A stretch of 64,000 bases of DNA from Candidatus Alcyoniella australis (GCA_030765605.1 JAVCCG010000119.1:1-64000); one strand, 5' to 3'; counted from the first letter of the stretch, positions 30,449 through 52,789 are shown. A program made the numbers and translations. The notes: generated by a model not told the origin, from the letters alone.

Positions 30449-31909
30449 TCACTCGTCGTCGTTTAAAATACGGTAGATATTCCAGTGGCCGATGCGGTGT
30501 TCCAGCAGGAACAGGTGTCCGTGGGCGCGGGCGCGCAGGGTGTCGGGCTTGAACCCGAGGAACGGGTCGAAGTCCAGAGTGCCGCCGAAAAACGGGTAGA
30601 GCAGGAAAGTGGCGCGCGGATCGGCGAGGCTGGTCGCAAAGGTCCGCGGGTCCATGCTGCCGGTCTGCTCGTCAAAGCTGGTCATCAGGAACGAGTCGTA
30701 GGGCAGACCCGAGCGCGTGAGGATGTATCCCTGATCGCGCACGCCGATCAGCACCGCCTGGTCCGGCTCGACGTTGGTGCGCAACCAGCCCACCAGGCTC
30801 TCGAGTTCGGCCGTGGCGCGGCAGCGTTGCTGGTCGATGCTCACGTGCCACAATCCCACGCCGCAGATAATCGCCAGGGCGGCCGCGGCCGAAGCGATTC
30901 CGCTGCGGCCGGAGCGCAAGGTGGCGATGCGCTCGATGGCCAGCCCGCCGTAGGGCAGCAGCGGGATCACCAGCAGCGCGGTGTACTTGGTCTCGTTATA
31001 GGCGAAGCTGCCGGCCAGCGTGCGCAGCTCGAATACGCAGAACAGCAGCCCGACCAGCGCCGCGGGCCACAGCGCCCGGCGCTCGATGCGCGCCAGCAGC
31101 AGCCCCAGGCCGATGGCCAGCAGCAGCGGCCCGCTGGCCGTGCTCAGCAGCACGCCGGGCCAGCCCAGCAGCCGCACGTAGAGCGAAATCCGTTGCAGGT
31201 GGTAGCCGCTGATCGAGCCCGCGGCCTTTAAAAAGAACAGCGGATCGTTGTACAGCCGCATTACGTCGACCATGTACAGCAGCGGTCCGATGGCGGCGCA
31301 GGCCCACAGCAGCGGCAAATGCCGCAGATCGCGGCGGCCGGTCATCAGCGGGGCCAGCGGCAGCAGCAGCCAGCCCTCGAAGCGCGTCATGGCGGCGATG
31401 GAGAGCAGCAGGCCCGCGCAGGCGTAGCGCCAGGCCTTGCCGCTTTGGGCCTGCCTGCCCAACACGGCCATGGCCAGGCCGGAAAGTGCGAAAAACAGGA
31501 ACGGCGCGCTGTCGAGGCTGACCACCGAGAGCCGCACGTGCAGCGGATAGATCGCCAGCAGCACGATGCCCAGCACAGTGGCGTTGCGCCCCGCGCTGTA
31601 GCGTCCGAAGATCCAGAACGGCGCCAACGTCAACAGCGAGAACAGCAGGCTCAGCGCCCGCGGCGCCAGCTCCAGGTTGTTCCAGACCGACAGCGCCCCG
31701 GCCAGCAAATAGAAGTGCACCGGCGGGTAGACCTCGTCGGGCATGATCCGAGGATCGGGCAGCCACTGGTGGACCACGAACAGCGCGCGGTCAAAGGCGT
31801 TGTGGTGTTGGTCGATGCCGTTGTCCGACCCGGCAAAGGCCCACAGCCGCACCAGAACATAGAAGATGATCGCGGCCGCCAGCGCGATCTTGAAACGCTT
31901 GTCAGTCAA
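30449..31909 (-). CDS. GT39/ArnT-like membrane glycosyltransferase
   Basis: 486 residues with about ten membrane segments. The N-terminal loop has the GT39/PMT pattern: an acidic residue after the first helix (FDRAL), then MPDEVYPPVHFYLLAG, the donor/acceptor loop typical of enzymes that use polyprenyl-phosphate sugars and act on the outer face of the inner membrane. Acceptor unknown. It starts 42 bases after the four-module radical-SAM gene on the same strand, so the two are probably co-transcribed. One of four GT39 genes in the window. Confidence 0.85.
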   Translation of the reverse strand: MTDKRFKIALAAAIIFYVLVRLWAFAGSDNGIDQHHNAFDRALFVVHQWLPDPRIMPDEVYPPVHFYLLAGALSVWNNLELAPRALSLLFSLLTLAPFWIFGRYSAGRNATVLGIVLLAIYPLHVRLSVVSLDSAPFLFFALSGLAMAVLGRQAQSGKAWRYACAGLLLSIAAMTRFEGWLLLPLAPLMTGRRDLRHLPLLWACAAIGPLLYMVDVMRLYNDPLFFLKAAGSISGYHLQRISLYVRLLGWPGVLLSTASGPLLLAIGLGLLLARIERRALWPAALVGLLFCVFELRTLAGSFAYNETKYTALLVIPLLPYGGLAIERIATLRSGRSGIASAAAALAIICGVGLWHVSIDQQRCRATAELESLVGWLRTNVEPDQAVLIGVRDQGYILTRSGLPYDSFLMTSFDEQTGSMDPRTFATSLADPRATFLLYPFFGGTLDFDPFLGFKPDTLRARAHGHLFLLEHRIGHWNIYRILNDDE

Positions 31910-31951: not shown

Positions 31952-34900
31952 TCAGTAGTCCAAACCGGGTTCGTTGCGCCCCGCGTCCTTGAGCACGTCG
32001 CGCTCCTCGCGGCTCAGTTCGTCGAGTCGGCGCTTGGCATCGCGGTTCATTCCAAGGTTATCACAGGCCTTGAGGCATTGGATCGGTGCGAAGTAGGGGT
32101 CGCGTTTGGACAGGTCGCGGGCCTTTACGCGGAACTCGCGAAAGCGCTCGCTGGTCCAGATCTCGCGGAAGGTGTTCTTGTGCAGGTTGCCCAGGGGCAG
32201 GTCGTCGGCCTTGCAGCAGGGGATCACGTCACCGCTGGTGAGCACGCGGGCGTAGGTCCAGCCCACGGTGCACGGCAGCTTGTCGATCACTTCCGCGTCG
32301 TAGCGGCCGCTGGTGCCGCCGGGGCTGGTGATCCGGCGGTAGAAGCTGCCGAAGCCTAAAAAGCTGACGAACTCGGCGGCCACGAAGAACCCGGTCTTGT
32401 CGATGGCGCAATGTTCGATCAGCTCGCATTCACGGCACTGCTGCTCGGGGTAGAAAAACAGCAGCGCGTTGCGCTCCGTGTTGTCCTCGCGCACCTCGAG
32501 CTGCCACTCCTTGCGCTTGCACAGCGCGTCGAAGCGCGCGATGTCGTCCAGCTCGTACTTGAAGCCCTTGGCCAGGGTGTCGCGTTTGACAAAGCGCGCG
32601 AACTCGTGCGACTCGGTGTCGCCGCCGCGCTGCTCGCGCCCCTTGCTCGGGTCGAGCTCGAGGTAATCATCGCGCAGGGTCAGCGTGCGCAGCTGCTCGG
32701 CTATCAGCTCGCGGTCCGCGTCGGAAAGCGCCAGGCTCTCGGTGCGGCCGGGCACGATGTCGATCGGCGTAAACTCGATGAACTCGGCCAGCGAATCCAC
32801 GGCAAAGTCGACCATATTGCCGATGTCGTGGGCGTTGAGCGTGCTGATTACGTTGTAGAGCTTGACCTGCGGCCGCGTCTTGCCTTGGCGCAATTTCTCC
32901 AGGTGCATCTCGCGCAAGGTGCTGCGCAGCTTGTCAAAAGTGTTCTTGGGCAGCTTGGGGTGGGTCGTGCGATAGACCTCGGGGCTGCCCGCCCAGACGC
33001 TGACCGTGATGTTGTCCACGCCCAGCTCCACAAGCTGTTTGGCGCGGCGTTTGTTGACCAGGGTGAAGTTGGTGATCAGCGTCACCGCCAGTCCAAGCTG
33101 CTTGGCCCGCGCGATGATATCCATGATTCGCGGGTGCATAAATGGTTCGCCCGCGCCGGTGAGCTGCACCATGCGCGTGCCCATGGTCGCCGCCTCGACC
33201 AGCAGTTTTTCCACCGCCGCGTAGGGCAGGTTCAGCTTGCGCTTGGCCGGCGAGATTTTGTCCGGTCCGAGCATGTCCGAGTGCACCCAGCAGCCCACGC
33301 AGTTGGAGTTGCAGTTGCACGTCAGGTCGATTTCCAAGATCTCCGGGCCGGTGAACACGTGGCCGGGCTCGCTGAGTACGCCCTGCAAATCGCGGTTGTC
33401 GCGCAGGAAGCCCTTGCGCTGGGCCGGGTCCGTGGCGTCGATGCCCGGGCCGCGATCGGCCGTGGGCTCTTTGGGCTGTTCGCGCTGCTGCGCGGGTTCG
33501 GCTGCGGGCTCCACCTCGCGCAAAGACTTGGGCTGGATATCGCTCTTGGTTTCGCGCGCGGGCTCCGGCTCGGGTTGATCGAGCGCCTCGGGCGGCGCGG
33601 TTTGGCCCGAGCCGTCGTCAAAGCTTTGCAGCGCGTTGATCTGGGTCAGCATTTGGGTCATCGCATCGGCGACGTTGATTGAGCCGTCGGCCAGCCGGTC
33701 GGCCAGGTCGTACTGTTTGCCCTCGGCCAGGTTGGTCTCGCGCACCTCAATGCCCTTTTCGCGGCAGAGCTTGAGCAGCGCGCGGATGCGGCGGTTGCGC
33801 TCGTCAATGGTGTTGCCGTGTTCGCCGACCCACAGGTAGTGGTAGTCGTGGTCGGGCAATGTGATGCCGAAGCGCTTGGGATTGCGGTGCAGGTCGGTGC
33901 CGGTGATCACGTGCAGGCTGTTGATCGATTTGATCTGGTCGATCCACTCCGCGTTGTCGCTTACGAATTGCAGGGTCTTACCGAACTCCTCGCGGGTCTC
34001 GCCGGGGAAGCCGATGATACTGAACAGGCAGGTTTTAATCCCGGCCTCGTGGGTGTCGTGGATCACGCGTTGCGCCTCGGCGACTTTAAAGAAGCGCAGC
34101 TTATTCATCTTTTTGAGCACGACCTCTGAGGCGCACTCGAGCCCGAGTTGCAGCTCGATGCACCCGGCGCGCGCCATCTTGTCCAGCAGTCGGCGGCTGA
34201 TGCCGGCCAGCGGAATGCCCTCTCCGCGCCACGCGAAGCGCAGCCCGGAGTCGATGATCAATTCGCACAGCCGCTCGAGGTTCGGCAGGTCGCCGTTGAT
34301 CAGCGGGTCGCAGACCGTGTAGTCGTGGATGCCGATCACCTCGACGTGGTGCCGCATCTCCTCGAATATCTGCTCGGCCGAGCGAGCGCGGTACGCTCCG
34401 GCGAGGTGGCGGCCCTTGCAGAACGTGCAGGCGCCGATGCAGCCGCGGCTCCACTCGACGATCAGGCTTTGGGCCGGGTAGTCGTCGAAGTCGAACTCCT
34501 CGTAACGCGGCCAGGGCACCTTGTCGAGGGAGGCGATCAGCTCCCGCGGTTCGTAACGTTCGTTGCCCGCGGCATCCCAGGTCAACACGCCGGGCACGTC
34601 GTCGAACGCGCTCCCCTCGCGTACGCGCCCCATCACCTCGAGTAACGCCGACTCGCCCTCGCCGACGATCATCCCGTCGATCAGATCGCCGATGTTGTCA
34701 ATAAAGATTTGGCGGTATTCGGGGGTGAAGGTCGCGGGCCCGCCCAGGACGATCTTGGCGGTCTTGTTCATCGCGCGGAAGCGGCGGATGAACTCGATGG
34801 TCATCCGTTCTTTGGGGTCGACCACGGAGAAGCCGACCAACGGCGGGTCGGTGAGCAGCAGTTTTTCCACGCACTGGTCGATCATTCCGTTGAACAGGTG

Positions 34901-37900
34901 GACCAGCACCTTGAAGGTGTGTTCGTTGGACCAGTAGTTCTTGTTCTCAACGTGCCACAGCAGCTTGGTCTGCTCGTGCGCCGCGTTGTACATCTCGTTG
35001 TTGAAGTCGAAGACCTCGGCCCACGAGCCGTGGGCGCGCACGTAGTTCGAGAGGTAGGCCAGGCCTACCGGCGGATTGTCAAAACCCCAGGGCGGTGTGG
35101 TGACCAGCACAACTTCGGCCGGCGGGCTGGTCTTGCTGCGCAGCCTGCGCCGGATGTCGTGCTCGTATTGACGCAGTGGGTGCTGCGCTCCGACCACGGC
35201 ATGCGAATTGAACTCAATCTCGAGCCCTTCGATGAACAGCGCCAGCTCGACGGTTTTCTTGTCGCGCCAGGAGGCGTTGTTGTAGCCGCGGTAGCTCCAA
35301 GAGCGATAGCGGTCGCGATCGAACAGTTGCACCTCGAACTGCGCCGGGGAGCGTTCGAGCTGGCTCTCGGGCGGCACGAAGCACGGGCCGAGGCGGTCCA
35401 CGGCGTCGATGTACTTTGCGTTTTGGCTCAGGCCGCGGGCGGTGTCGATGAAGCTGACCTCGGTCTCGCCGGGGAAGCCGACGATCAGGCTGACCTGGGT
35501 GCGGATCCCCGCGGCGTGGGCGTGGCGTAGGTTCCGCGCCGCGCACTGCGCGTCGTACTCCTTGTTCATCAGCGTCAGGATCTCGTTGGAGAACGACTCG
35601 ACGCCGAAGTGCAGCGAGATGCAGCCGCCGGCCGCCAGCGCGGCGAAGTATTCGGCGTCCATGTCCGGCCGCGGTGTAACATTTGCGCGCCAGCGCAACG
35701 GCTCGCCCGACTCGGCGATCAGCCGCGCCAACTCGCGCAGCAGGCCCGGGTCGGCGTTGGCGATCAGGTCGCCGATCCAAAATTCGTTGCGCCGCAGCCG
35801 CCGCCGGTTGGCAAGCATCTCGTCGAACACCGGTCGCGCCGAACGCGGTCTAAACGGACCCTCCATCGGCTGCTCGGCGCAGAACGCGCAACGGAACGAG
35901 CAGCCGCGCCCCAGGCGCACGGGTAGCGAGGGCGAGGTATAGAGGTTGAGCGCGAAGCAGGAGAACGTCGGCGCAGGCAACAGGTCCAACGGCCGAAGCG
36001 GCTCGCGCGGCCAGAACTTGCCGTCGTCTTTTCCGCGTAGTGCGCCGCGGATGTTGCGCCCGTCCAGCTCGTCGGCCAGCGACACCAGCTCGTGTACGGT
36101 CTTCTCCGGGTCGCCGAGCACGAAGTAGTCCACGCCGCGCTCGAATGCCGTGCGTTCGGCCTCGGAGATCGCGGCCGGTCCACCGACGATGATCAGCGGA
36201 CGGCACTCCAGCTCGTCCAACCCGCGCACCAGCTTGGCTGCCAAAAGCCGGTTGGGCTGGGTGGCGTGCACGTAGACAGCGCGCGGGGCCAGCGCTTTAA
36301 GGCGCGCCAGGGCACCGGGCAGGTCGATCTTGATTCGTTTGGCCAGATTGTCCAGGCCCTCGGGCCGTCCGCTGTCGCGCCAGATTTCAGCGGGCCAGTC
36401 GGCCTGACCGTCTTGAGCGAAGCGCGAGAAGGTCTCGATGTTCAGGTCGAGCAGTCGCACCGAGAGGTTGCGCGCGCGCAGGTACTCGTCCAGCGCGGCC
36501 ATGTCCCAATCGGGCATGCCTGCGGCCAACGGCGGCGGTAGGATCAGCGCCAGGTCGAGCCCGCTGTGCGCGGCAAAGCTGCTCTCGCCCTCGAAGCTCA
36601 CGTTGCTCTGTCTGACCTCCAGGTGCAGCTCCTCGGCAAGCTTCAGCGCGCGCAGTTGGCGCTCGCGGCGCGAGGCCGGGGTGTTGCCGTCGCGTCCGAT
36701 CCAGTCGACCTCGAACCAACGCGCATCGGACGTGGGAACGATGCCGTACTCGTCCGGCCGCTGGGCCAGGATCGAGCCGGGCAATACGTTGCAGGTGTTT
36801 AGCACTGAAATGGCGTCGATTAAAGTCTTACCGCGCTCGATCAGCTCGAGGGTCTGATCAAAATCCTGCTCGGTCTCGCCGGGGAAGCCGATGACGATGT
36901 TGATCCAGAGCCTGATCCCGGCGTCCTTAACGCGCTGCATCTGGGCCAGGGCCTGCTCGGATTTAAACCCTTTGTTCATCAGCCCCAGCACGCGGTCCGA
37001 GCCGCTTTCGATCCCCAGGCTCAGAGTGTGACAGCCCGCTTGGCGCAGCAAGGTCAGCGCATCGTGGTCAAGCAGGTCGGAGACCCAGGCATTGCCGTTG
37101 AAGCGGATCTTTTGGCCCGACTCGACGATCAGCCCACAGAGCTTGAGCATTTGGGGCAGATTGCTGTTGATCGCCAGGTCGTTGAGCATGTAATCGTGGC
37201 ATCCGTAGCGCTCGATGTGTGCGCTGAGTTCCTCGAACAGCGAGCGGCCCGAGCGGCGGCGCAACGGTCCCATCAGCACTCGGTCGTTGCAAAGTGTGCA
37301 GCCGCGCGGACAGCCGCGGCTGGCGATCAAGGGCAGGTTGGGCGTGGCGTACTTGTCCAGCTCGAACTCCTCGAACGTGGGCCAGCCCAGCTGGTCGAGA
37401 TCCTCGGAGTATGGCCGGGTTTTGAGCGGGCCGAGCACGCCGCCGGAGACTGTCAGCAGGCCGGGAATGCCTGCCGGGCGATTGCCCTCCCGGCGCGCCT
37501 GGATCAGCTCCAGGGCGGTCAGTTCGCCGTCGCCCACCACCATCAGATCGACGTTCTCCGGGGTGAAGCGTTCGCGCTGCACGGCTGTGCCCGTGGCTGT
37601 GCCGCCCACCAGCAGGGTTAGGCCGGGCAACCTGCGTCGCAAATGGGCCAGCAGTCGGTCGGCGAACGCCAGGCTGTCGCTGCTCACCGACAGGCCGACC
37701 AGTTGCGCGCCCGAGGACTCGATGCGCTTCAGCGCGCGCTCGACCTGGGGCGACATCAGCTCCCAGGTTTGCTCCAGCCGCGAGTCGTAGACCCACTCGT
37801 CCTTGTGGTCCATGCTCCACAGTTCGGGCCGCCCCGCAGCGCAATAGCAGTCGATGTTGAGGTCGATCACCAGGGTCGTAACGCCGCGTCGGCGCAGGAA

Positions 37901-37996
37901 GCTCGAGACCTGCGCCAGGCCCAACGGCGGGCCCTCGGGCCCCCAGGGCGGGACCTGAATCAATACGATGTCGATCGGTTGCAGCTGCGATACCAT
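31952..37996 (-). CDS. Four-module radical-SAM megaprotein (three B12-like/rSAM repeats plus a SPASM-like rSAM module)
   Basis: 2014 residues in one uninterrupted frame. Module 1 (1-475), module 2 (478-955) and module 3 (956-1430) each have an N-terminal B12-binding-like Rossmann domain, then a radical-SAM core with CxxxCxxC at 229-236, 699-706 and 1186-1193, a GxE (GIESGS, GVESFS, GLECAS) and GFPGET at 370, 840 and 1329. Modules 1 and 3 share the start PPWGxxxPPxGLA; module 2 is more worn. None shows DxHxxG, so base-off cobalamin binding is uncertain. A charged Pro/Glu linker (1460-1530) joins module 4 (1545-2014), which has CNSNCVGC at 1562-1569, GAGEPFMHP, and downstream cysteines (CREC at 1854, CC at 1927, CLKAC at 1974) like a SPASM domain. 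Substrate unknown. Confidence 0.9.
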   Translation of the reverse strand: MVSQLQPIDIVLIQVPPWGPEGPPLGLAQVSSFLRRRGVTTLVIDLNIDCYCAAGRPELWSMDHKDEWVYDSRLEQTWELMSPQVERALKRIESSGAQLVGLSVSSDSLAFADRLLAHLRRRLPGLTLLVGGTATGTAVQRERFTPENVDLMVVGDGELTALELIQARREGNRPAGIPGLLTVSGGVLGPLKTRPYSEDLDQLGWPTFEEFELDKYATPNLPLIASRGCPRGCTLCNDRVLMGPLRRRSGRSLFEELSAHIERYGCHDYMLNDLAINSNLPQMLKLCGLIVESGQKIRFNGNAWVSDLLDHDALTLLRQAGCHTLSLGIESGSDRVLGLMNKGFKSEQALAQMQRVKDAGIRLWINIVIGFPGETEQDFDQTLELIERGKTLIDAISVLNTCNVLPGSILAQRPDEYGIVPTSDARWFEVDWIGRDGNTPASRRERQLRALKLAEELHLEVRQSNVSFEGESSFAAHSGLDLALILPPPLAAGMPDWDMAALDEYLRARNLSVRLLDLNIETFSRFAQDGQADWPAEIWRDSGRPEGLDNLAKRIKIDLPGALARLKALAPRAVYVHATQPNRLLAAKLVRGLDELECRPLIIVGGPAAISEAERTAFERGVDYFVLGDPEKTVHELVSLADELDGRNIRGALRGKDDGKFWPREPLRPLDLLPAPTFSCFALNLYTSPSLPVRLGRGCSFRCAFCAEQPMEGPFRPRSARPVFDEMLANRRRLRRNEFWIGDLIANADPGLLRELARLIAESGEPLRWRANVTPRPDMDAEYFAALAAGGCISLHFGVESFSNEILTLMNKEYDAQCAARNLRHAHAAGIRTQVSLIVGFPGETEVSFIDTARGLSQNAKYIDAVDRLGPCFVPPESQLERSPAQFEVQLFDRDRYRSWSYRGYNNASWRDKKTVELALFIEGLEIEFNSHAVVGAQHPLRQYEHDIRRRLRSKTSPPAEVVLVTTPPWGFDNPPVGLAYLSNYVRAHGSWAEVFDFNNEMYNAAHEQTKLLWHVENKNYWSNEHTFKVLVHLFNGMIDQCVEKLLLTDPPLVGFSVVDPKERMTIEFIRRFRAMNKTAKIVLGGPATFTPEYRQIFIDNIGDLIDGMIVGEGESALLEVMGRVREGSAFDDVPGVLTWDAAGNERYEPRELIASLDKVPWPRYEEFDFDDYPAQSLIVEWSRGCIGACTFCKGRHLAGAYRARSAEQIFEEMRHHVEVIGIHDYTVCDPLINGDLPNLERLCELIIDSGLRFAWRGEGIPLAGISRRLLDKMARAGCIELQLGLECASEVVLKKMNKLRFFKVAEAQRVIHDTHEAGIKTCLFSIIGFPGETREEFGKTLQFVSDNAEWIDQIKSINSLHVITGTDLHRNPKRFGITLPDHDYHYLWVGEHGNTIDERNRRIRALLKLCREKGIEVRETNLAEGKQYDLADRLADGSINVADAMTQMLTQINALQSFDDGSGQTAPPEALDQPEPEPARETKSDIQPKSLREVEPAAEPAQQREQPKEPTADRGPGIDATDPAQRKGFLRDNRDLQGVLSEPGHVFTGPEILEIDLTCNCNSNCVGCWVHSDMLGPDKISPAKRKLNLPYAAVEKLLVEAATMGTRMVQLTGAGEPFMHPRIMDIIARAKQLGLAVTLITNFTLVNKRRAKQLVELGVDNITVSVWAGSPEVYRTTHPKLPKNTFDKLRSTLREMHLEKLRQGKTRPQVKLYNVISTLNAHDIGNMVDFAVDSLAEFIEFTPIDIVPGRTESLALSDADRELIAEQLRTLTLRDDYLELDPSKGREQRGGDTESHEFARFVKRDTLAKGFKYELDDIARFDALCKRKEWQLEVREDNTERNALLFFYPEQQCRECELIEHCAIDKTGFFVAAEFVSFLGFGSFYRRITSPGGTSGRYDAEVIDKLPCTVGWTYARVLTSGDVIPCCKADDLPLGNLHKNTFREIWTSERFREFRVKARDLSKRDPYFAPIQCLKACDNLGMNRDAKRRLDELSREERDVLKDAGRNEPGLDY

Positions 37997-38126: not shown

Positions 38127-39092
38127 ATGCAACGCAAATCGGAAGTGATCTTCGGTCCGGTCCCCTCGCGCAGGTTGGGAATGAGCCTAGGCGTTGATGT
38201 GGTGCCGTGGAAGGTCTGTTCCTACGATTGCGTGTACTGCGAGGTCGGCCGCACCACCGAGCACACGCGACAGCGGGCCGAGTATGCGCCGTTGGCAACG
38301 ATCGAGGCCGAGCTGCGTAAATATTTCAGCGATCCGGCGGCGGGCAAGGGACTGGATTATGTGACCTTCTCCGGCTCGGGCGAGCCCACGTTGAACTCGG
38401 GGATCGGTCGGCTGATTCGGCTGGTCAAGCAGCTGTGCGATGTTCCGGTGGCCGTGCTGACCAACGGATCGCTGCTCGACGAACAGTCTGTGCGCGACGA
38501 GCTGTTTGCCGCCGACCTGGTGGTGCCCAGCCTGGACGCGGTCTCCCAAGAGGTGTTCCAGCGCGTCAATCGTCCGGCCCCCGGGATCGACGCGCAGCGC
38601 GTGGTTCAGGGCATTGAGCTGTTCACCCACAGCTTCGCGGGCGAGGTCTGGCTCGAGATTCTATTCGTCAAGGGCATCAACGACAGCAGTGACGAGGTCG
38701 AACGCCTGGCGCAGGCTGCCGCGGCCATCGCGCCGTTCAAGATTCAGCTGACCACTGTGGTGCGTCCGCCGGGATTCGGCAGCGCCGCTGCGGTTGACAG
38801 CGATTGGTTGCGTTCGATCAGCGCGCGCTTTGCGGGCAACGTCGAGGTGGTGGCTGATTTCAGCCGCGCCGCGCATCCGGCCTATAGCGAGGATCGCGCC
38901 GAGCAAATCATCAAAATGCTGCGCATTCGGCCGGTGACAATCGACGATCTGTGCGCATCCCTGGGCCTGCATCCAAACGAGGTGCGCAAGTATCTCGACG
39001 AGCTCCAACGCACTCACGGCGTGGAGAGCAACGAGTTCGAGGGGCGGCTGTACTACACCATTGATAAACGCAAACACGACGAGCACGGCTGA
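38127..39092 (+). CDS. Radical SAM protein (COG0731-like) with C-terminal winged helix
   Basis: 321 residues. Starts with FGPVPSRRLGMSLGVD and the cluster motif CSYDCVYC (CxxxCxxC), then VTFSGSGEPTLN (the GGE-like SAM-binding motif) and LTNGSLLD. This is the Fe-S oxidoreductase group distantly related to wyosine-base enzymes; its members have no settled reaction. The last 60 residues look like a winged helix (TIDDLCASLGLHPNEVRKYLDELQ). ATG 38127 has AGGAGGA six bases upstream. It is divergent from the four-module radical-SAM gene with 130 bases between, and 20 bases upstream of a dipeptidase gene on its own strand. Confidence 0.9.
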   Translation: MQRKSEVIFGPVPSRRLGMSLGVDVVPWKVCSYDCVYCEVGRTTEHTRQRAEYAPLATIEAELRKYFSDPAAGKGLDYVTFSGSGEPTLNSGIGRLIRLVKQLCDVPVAVLTNGSLLDEQSVRDELFAADLVVPSLDAVSQEVFQRVNRPAPGIDAQRVVQGIELFTHSFAGEVWLEILFVKGINDSSDEVERLAQAAAAIAPFKIQLTTVVRPPGFGSAAAVDSDWLRSISARFAGNVEVVADFSRAAHPAYSEDRAEQIIKMLRIRPVTIDDLCASLGLHPNEVRKYLDELQRTHGVESNEFEGRLYYTIDKRKHDEHG

Positions 39093-40147: not shown

Positions 40148-41902
40148 TTATTCCGGGGGCAGGCGCGGGTTGAGCGGCTCGGCCGGGGGGCCGTAGGCAG
40201 TCCGGCGGCTGACCACCACGTGCTTGGGATCGAGCACTCCCAGCCCGTCGTAGGCTGGCTCGTCGCTGACCGACTCGATCTCGAAGTAGCGCTGGTTGGC
40301 CGGTCCCCAAGAGACCACGTACTGCACGTCCATCGCCAGGAACAGGCCCTTGACGTACCAGGCGTCCTCCTCGCGGGCGCGTTTGAGATCGGGATGCTCG
40401 AGGCTCGGCAGGTAGTTGTGAAGCCCGCAATAGCCGTAGCCCGCGTCGATCTGCATCGGGTCCACGCCGCGGCGCTCGAGCACAGCGGCTTGATCCCACA
40501 GCGCCTCGTGCATTCGCAGATACTGAGTCGAGCGAATTCCGCCGATCACCAGCAGCGGGATCAGCAACAGCCAGCCCGGGGAGAATATCGACAGCCGACG
40601 TCGCGAGCCGATCAGTACGATTGCAATCAACAGCGCCGTGGGTCCGATGAAGTAGCGGTCGAAGAACTGGGCCAGTGGGTAGAGCACGGCCAGCTGTCCG
40701 ACGAGCACCAACAGCAGCATGCCCACCGGCGACTTGTAATCGACGATCGCCTTGGCCAGCCGGGACGCCAGCATCGCGGCGAGCAGCGCACCGCCGATCA
40801 GCGCGAGCTGCGTGGCGTGGGCAAAGCCCCAGGGCCACTCCAGCGGCGGCAGCTCGGTAAGCATCGAGGGCAGATAGGGCCAGACGGTTTCGATTTTTTC
40901 CAGTACGTAGCGGCCACTCTCAATCACGTCCAGCTCGATACGCAGCAGCCACCAGGCGGTAAACGCGGCCAGGCCCACGATCACGCTACGCCACAGCCAC
41001 GGAGTCTTCCGTTCGAGCCGCGGGCCCAGGGCCAGGCCGACGATCAGCGGCAGCAGCACGATCCCGGTGTGCATCAGCAGCAGCGCGCTGCGCGGGGCTA
41101 GGTCGCGGATGATCGGCGCGCGTTGGGCCAGGCGCTGTTGCACCTGCAGCCACTTGGCGTCGAGGGTGGTGTGCACCGGGTGGAACCACTCGTAGCCCAG
41201 ACGGAACACGGCGTAGCTGGTCAGCGGCAGCACGACCAACATCGCCAGGTGCGGCCAGGGCAGGGCCAGCCTCCGGCGGTTGGCCAGGAACCAGGGCAGG
41301 GCCAGCGGCGCGATCAGCAGCCCGTGCAGCTTGTTCCAAATCGACAGCGCGGCGATCACCGCACCCCACACCAACGCCTTGCGCGAACCGCTGGTCCCGG
41401 CTCGCACCAACAGCGCGCAGCTCCAGCACAGCATCGCCAGGTAGACCATGTCCGACTGAAATGTGAATCCGGTCACCAGCAGCACCGGGCTGGCACTGAG
41501 CACCAGCGCCGCGATGAACGCCTCATCCCCGCGACGGCCCGACCAGCGCACCATCGAGTAAAGTCCCACAGCCGCCAAATAGGTCGCGGCCACGTTGGAC
41601 AGCCGCAGCACCCAGGGCTCGAAGCCGAACACCAGGCAGAACAGGGCGCCCCACAGCGTGTGGATCACAGCGGCGGCCGAGTTGAACGGATCGAAGTAGA
41701 GTCTGCCGTGGAACAGCAGTTGCTGCACGGGCAGGGCGAAGTTCCACGAATCGTCGACCAGCGTGCGCGCGTCGGTGGGCAGGATCAGCGCTAGCGCAGC
41801 CCAGACCGCGCTGAGCACGACCAGCCAGGGCTCCGAGGCCAGCAAGCGCCCAATGCGCCTTGGGAATATCGGCTGTTCGCCGGTTGGAGGATCGGCCGTC
41901 AT
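40148..41902 (-). CDS. GT39-like membrane glycosyltransferase
   Basis: About 584 residues with ten to twelve membrane segments. After the first helix the loop reads LVDDSWNFALPVQQLLFHGRLYFDPFNSAA, with the acidic pair of GT39 enzymes; FTFQSDMVYLAMLCW and WNKLHGLLIAPLALPWF follow in later helices. Predicted to transfer a sugar from a polyprenyl-phosphate donor at the periplasmic face. ATG 41902 is chosen over a TTG twelve codons upstream. It is monocistronic and convergent with the dipeptidase gene. Confidence 0.8.
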   Translation of the reverse strand: MTADPPTGEQPIFPRRIGRLLASEPWLVVLSAVWAALALILPTDARTLVDDSWNFALPVQQLLFHGRLYFDPFNSAAAVIHTLWGALFCLVFGFEPWVLRLSNVAATYLAAVGLYSMVRWSGRRGDEAFIAALVLSASPVLLVTGFTFQSDMVYLAMLCWSCALLVRAGTSGSRKALVWGAVIAALSIWNKLHGLLIAPLALPWFLANRRRLALPWPHLAMLVVLPLTSYAVFRLGYEWFHPVHTTLDAKWLQVQQRLAQRAPIIRDLAPRSALLLMHTGIVLLPLIVGLALGPRLERKTPWLWRSVIVGLAAFTAWWLLRIELDVIESGRYVLEKIETVWPYLPSMLTELPPLEWPWGFAHATQLALIGGALLAAMLASRLAKAIVDYKSPVGMLLLVLVGQLAVLYPLAQFFDRYFIGPTALLIAIVLIGSRRRLSIFSPGWLLLIPLLVIGGIRSTQYLRMHEALWDQAAVLERRGVDPMQIDAGYGYCGLHNYLPSLEHPDLKRAREEDAWYVKGLFLAMDVQYVVSWGPANQRYFEIESVSDEPAYDGLGVLDPKHVVVSRRTAYGPPAEPLNPRLPPE

Positions 41903-41983
41903 GGGCCAAGGGTATTGGCCGCGGCCAAGACCTGTCAATCGCGGCGTTGACAGCGGCGGGCGGCTCAGCGTAAATGACCCTCA

Positions 41984-47742: not shown

Positions 47743-49095
47743 TCAGCCCTCGCCCAGACGCCCGGCAAGGTCCAGGGCGTCGGCCACCACCTCGTCCATA
47801 TTAAGGTAGGCGAAGCGGCCGGTGCGGCCCACCGGGTGCAGGTTCTCCAAGGTGGATAGGTATTGCGTGAGCACGGCCAGTTGTCGCTCGTACCCCACGC
47901 GGAACAGCGGGTAGGCGTCGGGCACGCGCTCGATGAACGCGGTGCGGATCTTGTCGCGCGCCACCAGGCCGGTGGCCACCAGGTCGCGCACCGCCAGGTC
48001 GGCCAACGCCTTGTCGTCCAGCTCCCAAGCCGCATCGCCGGGACCGCAGAAGATCTCCAGGCACAAGCTGGTCATCCCTGGTTCGCTCATCTCGCGTTCC
48101 CAGTTGCGCGGCTCGTGACTGCGGCCGAAAATCTGCGCCGTGTTGGGGAAGTAAATCCAGGTGTCGTCGCTCACCTGCTCCAGGTCGATGATCATGAACA
48201 CGCAGACCAGCGAGCGGTAGGCCAGCATCCGCGCGGCGTCCTGCACCTGCGTCGGCGGTTGCGGATCGAGGATGCGGATCAGCTCGGTGATCGGCACGCT
48301 GGAGATAAACTGCGCACCCTGGACCTCGACCAATCCGTCGGGCTCGCGCACCAGCGCGGCGCGTACGCGGCCGTTTTCATGGCGCACGCGTTCGACTCCG
48401 CGCACGTGGTGAATCACCGAGCCGTGCGCCTCGACCCGCTTGGCCAGGGCCTGGGCGATGCGGCCGATTCCGCCGCGCGGATAAAAGAACTGCGAGGCAT
48501 AAGTGCGCGGGGAGCGCCGCGAACTTAGCAATGCCTTGCGCACCGCGTCGAACAGGCTCAGCAGTTGGATGCGCGTGTTGGCCCAGTCCGCGCTGATCTC
48601 GCTGGAGGGCAGGCTCCAGGTTTTTTCGGTGTAGGGCCGAAAGTAGATCTCGAACAGTGCGCGGCCGAAGCGCGAACAGATCCAGCTTTCGAAGTCGTCG
48701 TCCCGCGAGCGGCCCAGCAGGCGGCCCAGCGCGGCTGTGCCGTAGTCGCGCACGATGCGCGCCGTGTCGCGTGCGCCGAACCCGAGCATCGCGTTGGCCG
48801 GCCGCAGCGGGTAGTCGAAAAAGCGGTCGCCGAGCATGATCCGGCTGCGGCGGTCGACCGTCAGCAGGTCGTCGCCCAAAAGCTCTTGCAGCCAAGCGAT
48901 CAGCCCCGGGTCGGCCGAGAAGAAACGGTGCCCGCCCAGGTCGAAGGTGAAGCCGCCCATGCGCACGTTGCGCGCCAAGCCGCCCAGTTGCGGCAGACGC
49001 TCGAAGATGTGCACCTCGCGGCCGCGCGCGCTGAGCATGTCCGCGGCGCTTAGTCCGGCCAATCCGGCGCCGAAGATTACGGTTCGTTCGCTCAA
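47743..49095 (-). CDS. FAD-dependent amine-oxidase/UDP-galactopyranose-mutase-like protein
   Basis: 450 residues. Rossmann start VIFGAGLAGLSAADML, then FERLPQLGGLARNV, FTFDLGGHRFFS and YTEKTWSLPSSEISADWANTRIQ. The GGHRFF and EKTW-SLPxxEISADWA motifs belong to the family of NAD(P)-binding amine oxidases near glycan clusters that are related to UDP-galactopyranose mutase and protoporphyrinogen oxidase. The actual reaction is unknown; modification of a nucleotide or lipid-linked sugar is likely from context. The start is TTG 49095, with GGAGG four bases upstream, overlapping the GT2 stop as TTGA. Confidence 0.85.
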   Translation of the reverse strand: MSERTVIFGAGLAGLSAADMLSARGREVHIFERLPQLGGLARNVRMGGFTFDLGGHRFFSADPGLIAWLQELLGDDLLTVDRRSRIMLGDRFFDYPLRPANAMLGFGARDTARIVRDYGTAALGRLLGRSRDDDFESWICSRFGRALFEIYFRPYTEKTWSLPSSEISADWANTRIQLLSLFDAVRKALLSSRRSPRTYASQFFYPRGGIGRIAQALAKRVEAHGSVIHHVRGVERVRHENGRVRAALVREPDGLVEVQGAQFISSVPITELIRILDPQPPTQVQDAARMLAYRSLVCVFMIIDLEQVSDDTWIYFPNTAQIFGRSHEPRNWEREMSEPGMTSLCLEIFCGPGDAAWELDDKALADLAVRDLVATGLVARDKIRTAFIERVPDAYPLFRVGYERQLAVLTQYLSTLENLHPVGRTGRFAYLNMDEVVADALDLAGRLGEG

Positions 49096-51293
49096 TCGTC
49101 CTCCGTCACCTGTAGGCCGATCCGTTTGACGATCCACGGGTCGGGCGGCGCGTTGACTCGCGCGTCACGCCGTCCACGCATGCGCCAGGCGACCTGCTCA
49201 ATCTCGCGGCTGCGGCCCAAAATCCACAACGCGCTCTCAGCCGCGCACGCGGCGAGATAAACAGCCCGCAATCCCGGTCCACGCAGCCTGCGCGAGAGCA
49301 GCTCGGCATTGCGTCCCAGGAAGTAGGTCTTAACAATTCGCGCCATCGAACTCGTGGGCCCCGCGTGCTCGACCGTGGCCCGGGGCTCGACAAAGCAACG
49401 CAACCCGCGCGCCCGCGCGCGTTCGCACCAATCGAGCTCATCGTGATAGCAGTAGAGTTCACTATCAAGCCCTCCGACCAGGTTCCAGCCGCGACGGGTA
49501 ATCAACAGGCAGCAACCCAGGGGGAAGTCCACGGGTCCGGCGGAGTAGCGCGCGTTTGCCGACGGCTCGCCCTGGCCGCGAATGCGAGCCAGGAATTGGT
49601 TGGGACGAATCGCTCCGGCAAACCCCTCGAGGATTGAGCAATCGTCGCCGCGCCGGACCAGCGCGCCCACGCAGGCGCAATCAGCATGACGGTCGGCCAA
49701 ACGCGAAAGCGCCCGCACCGCGTCCGGATCGACGAACGCGTCGGGGTTGCACAGCAGCGCGTGGCGCGCGCCCGCGTTAAAGGCGCGCTCCAGGCCGACG
49801 TTGGCCGCGGCCGCGTACCCGCGGTTGCCCGGCTGATAGAAGAAGTCGAATCCCGGCTCATAGATTGCGGCCCAGGGACGGCCGTGTTCCAGCAGCGGCA
49901 TGTCGGCGATCACGATCCCGCGTTGCACTCCAGAGCGGCGCAGGGCCTCCAGGCAACGCGGCAAGCTCGGCGGCTTGCCGTGAACCACGACCACTGCCCA
50001 GGTATGCGCAACATCGGTCTGCTCGTTGCCGCCGGGCTTGGGCGTGACCACCCAGGGTTGGGGACCGGGTCGTAGCGCCGAGAACTGGCCGCGCAACGCG
50101 GCCAGCATGTCGGCCAGGAAGATCAGCGGTGCGGGGATCAGCCGCAACCACAGCGCCAGCGGCTCGCGCGCTTGTAATAGCGCTCCGGCCGCGAACAGCG
50201 CTGCGCAAAGCAGCGGAGCCGCGATCAGCCACCAGGGGAAGGCCACGCCGCTCAGCGGCGCGAGCAGCGCCAGCGCCAGCCCCACCAGCAGCGCCGCGCG
50301 GTCGGCGTAGCCCAGCAAATACAGCAGACCGGCCAGTCGCGCCAGAAGCCCGCCGGAGGGGTCCCACCACGGTTCAGAGGCAAAGGCCCGCGACCAGCCG
50401 GCGTGTTGGTCGATGTAGGCCCGCACGCTTTGCGGGGCCAGGTGCTCGACCAGCGGCTCGCGCACGAAGCGCACTTTGCTGCCCTGCGCGTGCAGCGCTT
50501 TACTTAGCGGCACATCCTCGGCGCGGCTCCCCTCGGGGAACATTCCGGCCCTTCGCAGCGTGTCGAGCCTGATGGCAAATCCGTGGCCCAGCAGCGGCGG
50601 ATTGCCGGCCAGCTCCAGGATGCGCACGATCCCCGCCTGGTGCACGATCTGTTCGAGCAGGCAGTAGGCGGTAACTGCGTTCCGGGTTCCGTTGTGGATC
50701 CGCAGCCCGAACTGCACCGCGTCGGCCCCGGCGTTGATCTGCGCGGCCGCGCTAATGGGCCAGTCCGGCGGTACGCGGTCGTCCGCGTCGAGCACCAGCA
50801 CAACCTCGGCCCATTGCTCATCGGCCAGGGCTGCGTTGAGCGCCGCGGGCTTGCCCGCGCCCGCTCGCTCGGGCGGCACCTGGAATACGCTCCAGTTGCC
50901 GCGCCCCTTGCATGCCGCATCAAGCAGCTCGGCTGTGTTGTCGTTTGATCCGTCGTCGATCAGCAGCACTCGCAATCGATCCGGCGGAGCCTCGATCAGC
51001 ACCAGGCGGGAGATGGTCTCGGGCAGCACCGCGGCCTCGTTGCGGCACGGCACCAGCAGCAGCAGGTTGGGCCAGGGCTCGGATTCGGTGGGTACCGGCT
51101 CGGATGTGCGCGGCAGCAACAGCAGCAGTAGCGAGATTATCCGGCGCAGGGTGTAGAGGGTCAGCACCGCGCCGCAAAGCACGGCTGCCAGATAGAGCAC
51201 GGCGCGCAGCGCGCCCATCGGTCCGCCGTTGATCAGCCCGACAATCGCGGCCAGCAGCGCGAGCACGATCAGGACCGGGGTCGACCGTCTCAT
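49092..51293 (-). CDS. Double GT2 glycosyltransferase with central membrane region
   Basis: 733 residues carrying two family-2 glycosyltransferase domains. The first (about 75-300) has LLLVPCRNEAAVLPETI, LLIDDGSNDNTAEL, VLVLDADDRVP and a later AEDVPLSKAL; the second (about 435-660) has WAVVVVHGKPPSLPRCLEAL, LLCNPDAFVDPDAV and ELYCYHDELDWCERARARG, similar to rhamnosyltransferases. Membrane helices flank the first domain at residues 5-62 and 318-400. Catalytic aspartates are present in both, so both could be active. ATG 51293 overlaps the previous gene as ATGA. Confidence 0.88.
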   Translation of the reverse strand: MRRSTPVLIVLALLAAIVGLINGGPMGALRAVLYLAAVLCGAVLTLYTLRRIISLLLLLLPRTSEPVPTESEPWPNLLLLVPCRNEAAVLPETISRLVLIEAPPDRLRVLLIDDGSNDNTAELLDAACKGRGNWSVFQVPPERAGAGKPAALNAALADEQWAEVVLVLDADDRVPPDWPISAAAQINAGADAVQFGLRIHNGTRNAVTAYCLLEQIVHQAGIVRILELAGNPPLLGHGFAIRLDTLRRAGMFPEGSRAEDVPLSKALHAQGSKVRFVREPLVEHLAPQSVRAYIDQHAGWSRAFASEPWWDPSGGLLARLAGLLYLLGYADRAALLVGLALALLAPLSGVAFPWWLIAAPLLCAALFAAGALLQAREPLALWLRLIPAPLIFLADMLAALRGQFSALRPGPQPWVVTPKPGGNEQTDVAHTWAVVVVHGKPPSLPRCLEALRRSGVQRGIVIADMPLLEHGRPWAAIYEPGFDFFYQPGNRGYAAAANVGLERAFNAGARHALLCNPDAFVDPDAVRALSRLADRHADCACVGALVRRGDDCSILEGFAGAIRPNQFLARIRGQGEPSANARYSAGPVDFPLGCCLLITRRGWNLVGGLDSELYCYHDELDWCERARARGLRCFVEPRATVEHAGPTSSMARIVKTYFLGRNAELLSRRLRGPGLRAVYLAACAAESALWILGRSREIEQVAWRMRGRRDARVNAPPDPWIVKRIGLQVTEDD

Positions 51294-52789
51294 GGCAGCG
51301 TCGCCTCGTCAGCGGATTGTGGCGAGCTGTAGGGGATGAATCGGATCCCCATGTATGGCTGCACCGATATCGGTTCTCCGCGTTCCAGCCGCTGATCCAG
51401 CTGGCGTTCCACCGAGCGTTGCGGGTCGTGCAGGTAGCCCATGTAGTCGGCGAGCCAGACCGTGTCGCGCTCCGCGATCAGCTTCTCCAGGCGCAGATGC
51501 AGTTCGTCGGAATCGTCGGGGACCGTCAGACGGCTGGAATCGAGGATGATCTGTTTCAGCGGCGCATCGCCCCGGTAGTAGTACAGCAGGTCCGGCGTGC
51601 TGTGGCGGCTGAAGACCAACAGCAGGTCGCGCGGCCCGGTGCGCGAGGCCATGGCGCTGAACGCCTCGCGCCACTGCGGTTTGGAGTAGAGCGGATCGTT
51701 GCGCGTCTGCGCGATGCCCAGCGCGCCGCACAGCAGCAGCGCGGCCAGGCAGGCCCCGGCCAGGATCCGCGAGCGTTCCCAGGCCGCGTCGAAACCAAGG
51801 CCGACGCAGGCGGCGAACGCCGGGACCACGAACACCATGTACTTGGCCGAGAACAGCGGTACGAACAGCGATACGGCCAGCACCAGTGCGAAGGGCAGAA
51901 GCAGGTAGGCGGCGAACAATCGGTTCCCGCGATCCTTGCGCCGGACCAGACTCCAGCCGACAAGCAGCAGGGCCGGCGCACTGAGCGCCAGCTGAACCAG
52001 TCCGTAGTTCGGCCCGCTGCGCGCCAGCAGCGGCTCGAGCAGGCCGCTTAGCGTTGATGGTCGCCAGGGAAACGAGTTGAACGTCCAGGCCAGCCAGGTC
52101 TGCAACAGCATCTGACCCAGGGATGTGAACTCGCGCCAGCTCTGGCCGTGAATGAACTGCGAAACCAGGAACAGCGTCCAGGGTGCGAACAGCAGCAACG
52201 GCACGGCAATGTGTTTGAGCTGGCGCAGGCTGCGCCTGGACCACAGCAGGTAGAGCCCTTGGAAGGCCACGATGAAAAAGGCGAAGTAATTGGTGTACAG
52301 CGCGGCGGCCGTGACCAGCGCGTGGGCCGGGCTCAGTCGGTCGCGGCGTCCCCTGGCAATCGGGATCAACAGCAGCACCGACAGCGCGCCCAGGGTGGTC
52401 AGCATGCTCAGGTTGCGCAGATCCTGGCTGATCCAGTTGTGCAGCGGATTGAGCGCCAACACCAGCGCGGCGATCAGCGCGGCGCGCGTGCCGTGCAGTT
52501 GCCGCACAGCCAGGTAGAGCACCAGGACCGCAAGGGTTCCCCACAGTGCGGGGATCGCGCGCAGCCAGGTCTCGGATTCGCCGAACTGGCGCATCAGCCG
52601 CACGCTGATGTAGAACAGCGGCGGGTGCGGGTCGGTGCTGTAATAGGCCAGGGACGAGGCCAGGGGGAACTTGGTGACGTTGATCGAGCACAGCTCGTCG
52701 CCCCAGAAACATTGATCGCCCAGGCCGATGAAGCGCAACGCTCCGGCCAGCAGCGTGACCGCGCACGGTGCGATCCAATCGCGGCGCAT
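51290..52789 (-). CDS. GT39-like membrane glycosyltransferase
   Basis: 499 residues with about ten membrane segments. The first loop contains CFWGDELCSIN (GT39 acidic motif) and YYSTDPHPPLFYISVRL (HPPLFY motif). It likely uses polyprenyl-phosphate-linked sugar at the periplasmic face. Its ATG shares a base with the DUF502 stop and its stop overlaps the GT2 start as ATGA. A nearly equally long open frame overlaps it on the same strand but is rich in Arg/Ala/Pro with no membrane segments and is rejected. Confidence 0.86.
   Translation of the reverse strand: MRRDWIAPCAVTLLAGALRFIGLGDQCFWGDELCSINVTKFPLASSLAYYSTDPHPPLFYISVRLMRQFGESETWLRAIPALWGTLAVLVLYLAVRQLHGTRAALIAALVLALNPLHNWISQDLRNLSMLTTLGALSVLLLIPIARGRRDRLSPAHALVTAAALYTNYFAFFIVAFQGLYLLWSRRSLRQLKHIAVPLLLFAPWTLFLVSQFIHGQSWREFTSLGQMLLQTWLAWTFNSFPWRPSTLSGLLEPLLARSGPNYGLVQLALSAPALLLVGWSLVRRKDRGNRLFAAYLLLPFALVLAVSLFVPLFSAKYMVFVVPAFAACVGLGFDAAWERSRILAGACLAALLLCGALGIAQTRNDPLYSKPQWREAFSAMASRTGPRDLLLVFSRHSTPDLLYYYRGDAPLKQIILDSSRLTVPDDSDELHLRLEKLIAERDTVWLADYMGYLHDPQRSVERQLDQRLERGEPISVQPYMGIRFIPYSSPQSADEATLP

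Follow-up and report, generated by a model that had tools for sequence, protein, structure and literature searches.

Positions 31952-37996 of a 64,000-nucleotide stretch of DNA from Candidatus Alcyoniella australis (GCA_030765605.1, JAVCCG010000119.1:1-64000; the whole stretch is hereafter called the window) carry, on the minus strand, a single ATG-to-stop frame of 2014 residues without internal stops. The encoded polypeptide harbors four radical S-adenosylmethionine (radical-SAM) cores. The Pfam profile Radical_SAM (PF04055) matches the whole protein in four stretches (E=3e-78, 262 bits for a cut-off of 29.5), B12-binding in three stretches (E=6e-25), and SPASM with E=6e-13 (49.2 bits for a cut-off of 21.5). 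CxxxCxxC clusters start at residues 229, 699, 1186, and 1562, and GFPGE is found at residues 370, 840, and 1329 (ATG-based numbering; stop-to-stop numbering is higher by 4). With four profile stretches above the cut-off and a CxxxCxxC motif within each core, the protein belongs to the radical-SAM superfamily. It has the layout of class-1 cobalamin-type enzymes, in which a five-stranded N-terminal Rossmann domain precedes the radical-SAM core, as seen with Pfam, structural models, and Foldseek matches. It is also a radical-SAM/SPASM protein, with a C-terminal SPASM domain and its extra cluster cysteines. A first-pass annotation made from the sequence alone had described the 2014-codon frame, the four clusters at exactly these positions, three copies of GFPGET, repeated B12-binding-like domains, a Pro/Glu linker, a SPASM-like fourth module, and a PPWGxxxPPxGLA start shared by modules 1 and 3; all these features are borne out here.

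The chain is organized as three B12-type modules (m1, m2, and m3), a linker, and a SPASM-type module (m4), all encoded on the minus strand. Module m1 (residues 9-476; 36569-37972) comprises a B12-binding-type Rossmann domain and a radical-SAM core, identified with Pfam and modeled with a predicted local distance difference test (pLDDT) value of 89. A motif scan places its cluster, CPRGCTLC, at residues 229-236 (37289-37312). Module m2 (residues 481-952; 35141-36556) has the same Rossmann and radical-SAM composition, and its cluster motif is CSFRCAFC (residues 699-706; 35879-35902). Module m3 (residues 962-1437; 33686-35113) contains the cluster CIGACTFC (residues 1186-1193; 34418-34441) and the signature WHVENKNYW (residues 1014-1022; 34931-34957), which occurs as WHVENKN(Y/F)W in every listed m3. 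The stretch corresponding in m2 to the PPWGxxxPPxGLA start of m1 and m3 is PPLAAGMPDWDMAAL. The linker (residues ~1464-1517; 33446-33607) is rich in Pro and Glu, is predicted to be disordered (pLDDT <50), and differs among homologues in both length and sequence. Module m4 (residues 1519-2011; 31964-33442) is composed of a radical-SAM core with the cluster CNSNCVGC (residues 1562-1569; 33290-33313) and a C-terminal SPASM domain (Pfam, residues 1909-1960). In its SPASM region, cysteines 1854, 1909, 1927, 1928, 1974, and 1978 are invariant or almost so in the alignment.

Homologues of the gene were found in six out of six other genomes of the class. Four of them are intact four-core frames of 1945-2100 residues in which every cluster motif is retained, with a short unread stretch within m2 in one case (G006). 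The homologue of G004 is a three-core m2-m3-m4 protein, and no remnant of m1 was seen in its neighborhood. In G005, the modules lie in several broken, overlapping frames. Outside the class, a match at E=1e-100 was obtained in none of the 34 genomes of that search. An assembly or frame error fusing separate genes would fit the overlapping frames of G005 and the missing m1 of G004, but the probability of such an artefact is negligible. The four other class genomes contain independent intact frames, a Woesearchaeota metagenome-assembled genome (MAG; L009) encodes three B12-type modules and a SPASM module in the identical order in a single 1963-residue frame, and G005, the source of the broken frames, is a MAG only 77% complete. 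The assembly joins that the first-pass annotation had named as a ground for giving up the array are rejected on the strength of these independent homologues. The four-core protein is hence real and conserved.

The modules have diverged at different rates. Mean identity between orthologs is 58.5% for m3, 54.3% for m4, 47.8% for m1, and 43.6% for m2. Module m3, the most conserved, is orthologous across phyla and in archaea, and WHVENKN(Y/F)W, DPKER, and further stretches are kept in bacteria and archaea alike. Module m2 evolves fastest and had been described as worn, which holds for the eroded motif of its Rossmann domain but not for its catalytic motifs, as CxxxCxxC, GVES, and GFPGET are all retained, nor for its fold, which is modeled as a full Rossmann and TIM-barrel unit. 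It may be partly structural. A partial scaffold, with catalysis left to m3 and m4 and with m2, perhaps also m1, mainly docking a substrate, a partner, or an electron donor, is a possible but doubtful alternative to catalysis by all modules. It would account for the rapid evolution of m2, for the high conservation of m3 and m4, for the missing m1 in G004, and for the m2 counterparts of Wallbacteria and of loci L089-L091, in which GxPGE and the Glu of GxES are gone. Within the class, however, m2 keeps CxxxCxxC throughout and most of the other catalytic motifs (GFPGE is lost in G001), and it folds fully in the model. Between the assembly line and the scaffold that the first-pass annotation had offered, the conservation of all four clusters favors catalysis.

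The predicted models of m1-m2 (pLDDT 89) and m3-m4 (pLDDT 81) display complete folds. Foldseek matches of the B12-type modules in the PDB include TsrM, OxsB, CysS, TokK, and MgmA (TMt 0.70-0.73), as well as AprD4 with paromamine (PDB ID: 6fd2; TMt 0.71-0.73). Module m4 matches BlsE (TMt 0.73), and SuiB and SkfB are also among the fold matches. In a profile search, the m4 auxiliary region retrieved BtrN (4e-11) and its core BlsE and DesII; m4 reaches the curated cut-off of none of the NCBIfam models listed. Sugars or nucleosides are the substrates of several of the closest solved enzymes, whereas TsrM acts on tryptophan and MgmA on a protein; the fold alone therefore cannot decide the substrate. 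Likewise, since AprD4 has the same fold and equal scores, the fold alone is no proof of cobalamin use by m1-m3.

The top NCBIfam model is TIGR03975, which describes C-methyltransferases of ribosomally synthesized and post-translationally modified peptides (RiPPs). The whole protein scores 295.6 for a cut-off of 281.85, but m1, m2, and m3 alone reach 115.6, 76.3, and 116.9, respectively. The pass is thus a sum over three modules, and a RiPP label would be a summation artefact. Maturation of a RiPP, in which a ribosomal peptide would be methylated by the B12 modules and cross-linked or epimerized by the SPASM module, would agree with the frequency of SPASM domains in peptide maturases and with SuiB and SkfB as fold matches; it is nonetheless improbable. 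No RRE or PqqD-like domain is present among the Pfam matches, and no conserved short open reading frame, apart from overlaps with conserved genes, was found across the class within 4 kb of the gene, a search that does not reach a distant or lineage-specific precursor. The identity as a RiPP enzyme was rejected, its sole strong support being the TIGR03975 match lost on single-module scoring. The suggestion that m4 acts on a peptide is likewise not upheld, as m4 homologues are fused to glycosyltransferase or carbamoyltransferase domains. More generally, repeated-module proteins can pass the cut-offs of hidden Markov models by summed score, which likely leads to wrong RiPP methyltransferase labels.

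A PMT_2-type glycosyltransferase gene (30449-31909, minus strand; Pfam) lies 42 bases downstream of the four-core gene on the same strand and is probably co-transcribed with it. Further glycosyltransferases of the window are a PMT at 40148-41938 and a GT2/PMT at 49092-52789; no glycan exporter was identified within the window. The loci of relatives comprise O-antigen ligase, ABC-2 permease and ATPase, WecA-type transferase, GT1, and GT2 genes, and others hold asparagine synthase, epimerase, polysaccharide deacetylase, and carbamoyltransferase genes. In G002 and G004, the homologues adjoin a block of GT2, B12-radical-SAM, GT2, and Wzz-kinase genes, partly present in G006. These WecA-type and PMT enzymes, which use polyprenyl-linked sugars, would also be compatible with lipid tailoring, i.e., a modification of the lipid part of a glycolipid, of the polyprenyl carrier, or of a membrane lipid, as performed by BchE, HpnJ, and ladderane-type B12-radical-SAM enzymes and by Tes. 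TIGR04072 (lipid biosynthesis) and HpnJ models do score, though well under their cut-offs. Lipid tailoring is rather unlikely, given that no dedicated lipid-biosynthesis genes were seen in the scanned loci and that the fusion partners of related units are a GT1 and a carbamoyltransferase domain.

Other features of the surroundings were recorded. A single-core radical-SAM gene (38127-39092, plus strand) is transcribed away from the four-core gene and has a likely ATG at 38127 preceded by a good ribosome-binding site; its product has a winged-helix-like C-terminus under the Pfam cut-off, and it was not seen adjoining the homologues at other class loci. No cobalamin riboswitch was found near the four-core gene at the Rfam gathering score, the only Rfam match of the window being a tRNA-His. 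The segment 28001-30000, which carries a gene for an SBBP beta-propeller protein, has a low guanine-plus-cytosine content (0.487, vs ~0.65 around it) and is possibly of foreign origin. The contig also carries, ~25 kb from the four-core gene, a cluster of three SPASM-type radical-SAM genes (G000:C119:63296-69320, i.e., L028:3296-9320), among which ABC-2 permease-like and ABC ATPase-like genes are interspersed; the families of these genes also occur in Omnitrophota loci.

The ancestry of the B12-type modules was examined in a tree of 52 modules, consisting of 40 module rows and other B12-radical-SAM proteins sampled from these genomes. The 40 rows split from the other proteins with a support of 100/99, and m1, m2, and m3 of the class each cluster with their own kind. 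The nearest kin of m3 are m3 units of Wallbacteria, a 'Deltaproteobacteria' MAG, Omnitrophota, and DPANN archaea. With three separate class-wide lineages and m3 kin in other phyla, a recent tandem duplication does not fit; old parts have been kept together. Of the proposal that duplication built the array, the homology of m1-m3, which form one subclan, holds, whereas a lineage-specific tandem duplication is not supported by the tree.

Related units are combined differently elsewhere. Besides the one-chain protein of L009, a Nanoarchaeota MAG (L011) has the parts as adjacent genes with 1 + 2 + 1 + 1 cores. Omnitrophota locus L012 encodes one protein with three B12-type modules and one with three SPASM cores, while L085 and L086 encode a 1919-residue protein (B12-type core and three SPASM cores) and a 1311-residue protein (radical SAM and two B12-type modules). 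A 2203-residue frame with four cluster motifs occurs in Wallbacteria (L014), and L089-L091 combine a worn m2-like unit, m3, and m4 in ~1450 residues. The Omnitrophota proteins with three SPASM cores measure 1429-1919 residues (L012:9932-14218, L015:7994-12313, L085:12655-18411, and L086:918-6668), and two of these four possess an extra B12-type core at the N-terminus. Strong matches remain scarce among the sampled genomes, with 9/285 in the phylum of L012, 3/279 in that of L009, and 6/40 in that of L014. Plasmid or phage carriage was considered and rejected. None of the plasmid records matched 80% of m3 within one qualifying place, the listed plasmid matches being 22-29% identical, and the viral contigs searched gave one weak match at 21% identity.

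The SPASM units form three groups in their own tree, s1 (including m4), s2, and s3. Of these, s1/m4 has the lowest support (88/84); the archaeal m4 from L009 is placed not within it but together with separate archaeal genes. The s2 unit is fused to a GT1 glycosyltransferase in Ca. Alcyoniella australis itself and in L013, L014 (Wallbacteria), and L099, and s3 has a carbamoyltransferase domain as its partner in the own genome. These own-genome fusions, GT1-radical SAM/SPASM and carbamoyltransferase-radical SAM/SPASM, lie at L026:1372-4104 and L026:4574-7423. The GT1-s2 protein has matches in 7/7 class genomes, and single frames were seen in five; recoding of TAG inside the matches of G002 and G004 was considered and rejected, this TAG being the stop codon of the upstream gene. 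In Omnitrophota, s1, s2, and s3 occur within one chain, which ties m4 to the GT1-fused unit. Such a distribution of the SPASM and B12 units would be expected of a conserved pathway whose parts have been fused anew.

Modules that are re-fused or separate in distant bacteria and archaea, mostly beside glycan genes, suggest that several radical changes are probably made on a surface glycan. On balance, and by a modest degree, the four-core protein is best viewed as a multi-headed radical-SAM enzyme that tailors a surface glycan, its substrate and chemistry being deduced from these contexts and likenesses. In such an enzyme, m1-m3 might methylate carbon in the B12-type manner or deoxygenate in the manner of AprD4, and m4 might oxidize or decarboxylate a sugar as SPASM enzymes do. 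The target would be one lipid- or nucleotide-linked sugar or oligosaccharide, modified before export. The covalent array could keep consecutive radical steps and their intermediates close and fix their stoichiometry, and the flexible linker might let m4 reach the substrate of m1-m3. Several points weigh against this proposal. The G004 protein lacks m1, so that four cores are not always required; TsrM, CysS, TokK, and MgmA, with non-sugar substrates, are equally close by fold; the immediate surroundings of the gene in the window, like those at L036, L039, and L089-L091, are only weakly glycan-like; and the nearness of glycosyltransferases to radical-SAM genes may be partly a matter of chance.

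The class possesses a second giant of 2363-2606 residues with five cores, one radical-SAM core and four B12-type modules. It lies at G000:C110:11938-19284 (L026:11938-19284) in the own genome and also in L100-L104; it forms a single frame in 6/7 class genomes and several frames in G005, and a carbamoyltransferase gene is close by. Each class genome also has at least 90 Radical_SAM matches, vs 1-39 in 14 other genomes of the same search. On a broader scale, the four-core protein may tentatively be placed within an undescribed radical-SAM "megasynthase" system, rare yet widespread, in which orthologous parts (m3, s1/m4, s2, s3, and more B12-type units) would have been rewired in uncultured bacteria and archaea into chains of three to five sites, with one tethered glycan intermediate passed from core to core. 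Modular polyketide synthases provide the analogy. The parts can be traced one by one across domains of life, offering a way to ask whether radical steps are channeled between linked sites, and the proposal predicts unusual (C-methylated, deoxygenated, or oxidized) surface sugars in little-known bacteria and DPANN archaea.

The kinds of domains are already known. In the open literature searched, which omits most subscription papers, no conserved four- or five-core chains with parts rearranged among phyla and domains turned up, and within that scope the architecture is as unusual as the first-pass annotation had supposed. Most descriptions of radical-SAM enzymes concern chains with a single core. 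The FO synthase FbiC, a fusion of CofG and CofH, is a radical-SAM polypeptide with more than one core; its two cores belong to different families, and it has neither B12-binding nor SPASM domains. The class-1 cobalamin-dependent radical-SAM enzymes have been defined as a class (PMC13331322). As in OxsB, TsrM, TokK, and CysS, a five-stranded Rossmann domain at the N-terminus of m1-m3 precedes a radical-SAM TIM barrel, but these solved enzymes have one core per chain and only 13-19% identity in the fold alignments. AprD4, the radical-SAM 1,2-diol dehydratase of apramycin, shares the fold of the B12-type modules and acts on an aminoglycoside sugar. Unlike the four-core protein, it is single-core, and every module stays far under its family cut-off of 500 bits, with 38.7 for m1 and 34.0 for m3 (m2 is not listed). 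BtrN, BlsE, and DesII, SPASM/twitch sugar enzymes resembling the auxiliary region and core of m4, are single-core too, whereas m4 is tethered to three other cores. The RiPP C-methyltransferases (TIGR03975, ApyD) are the top NCBIfam matches of m1-m3, but the four-core protein reaches their cut-off only by summing modules, and no precursor was found. In the plasmid-borne lipooligosaccharide (LOS)/rhamnose block of Brachyspira hyodysenteriae, several radical-SAM genes stand among GT1, GT2, and rhamnose genes (PMC4267127). Although those radical-SAM genes are listed as separate, where the four-core protein is one chain, and the likeness described is one of gene content, this block sets a precedent for a glycan locus with more than one radical-SAM protein.

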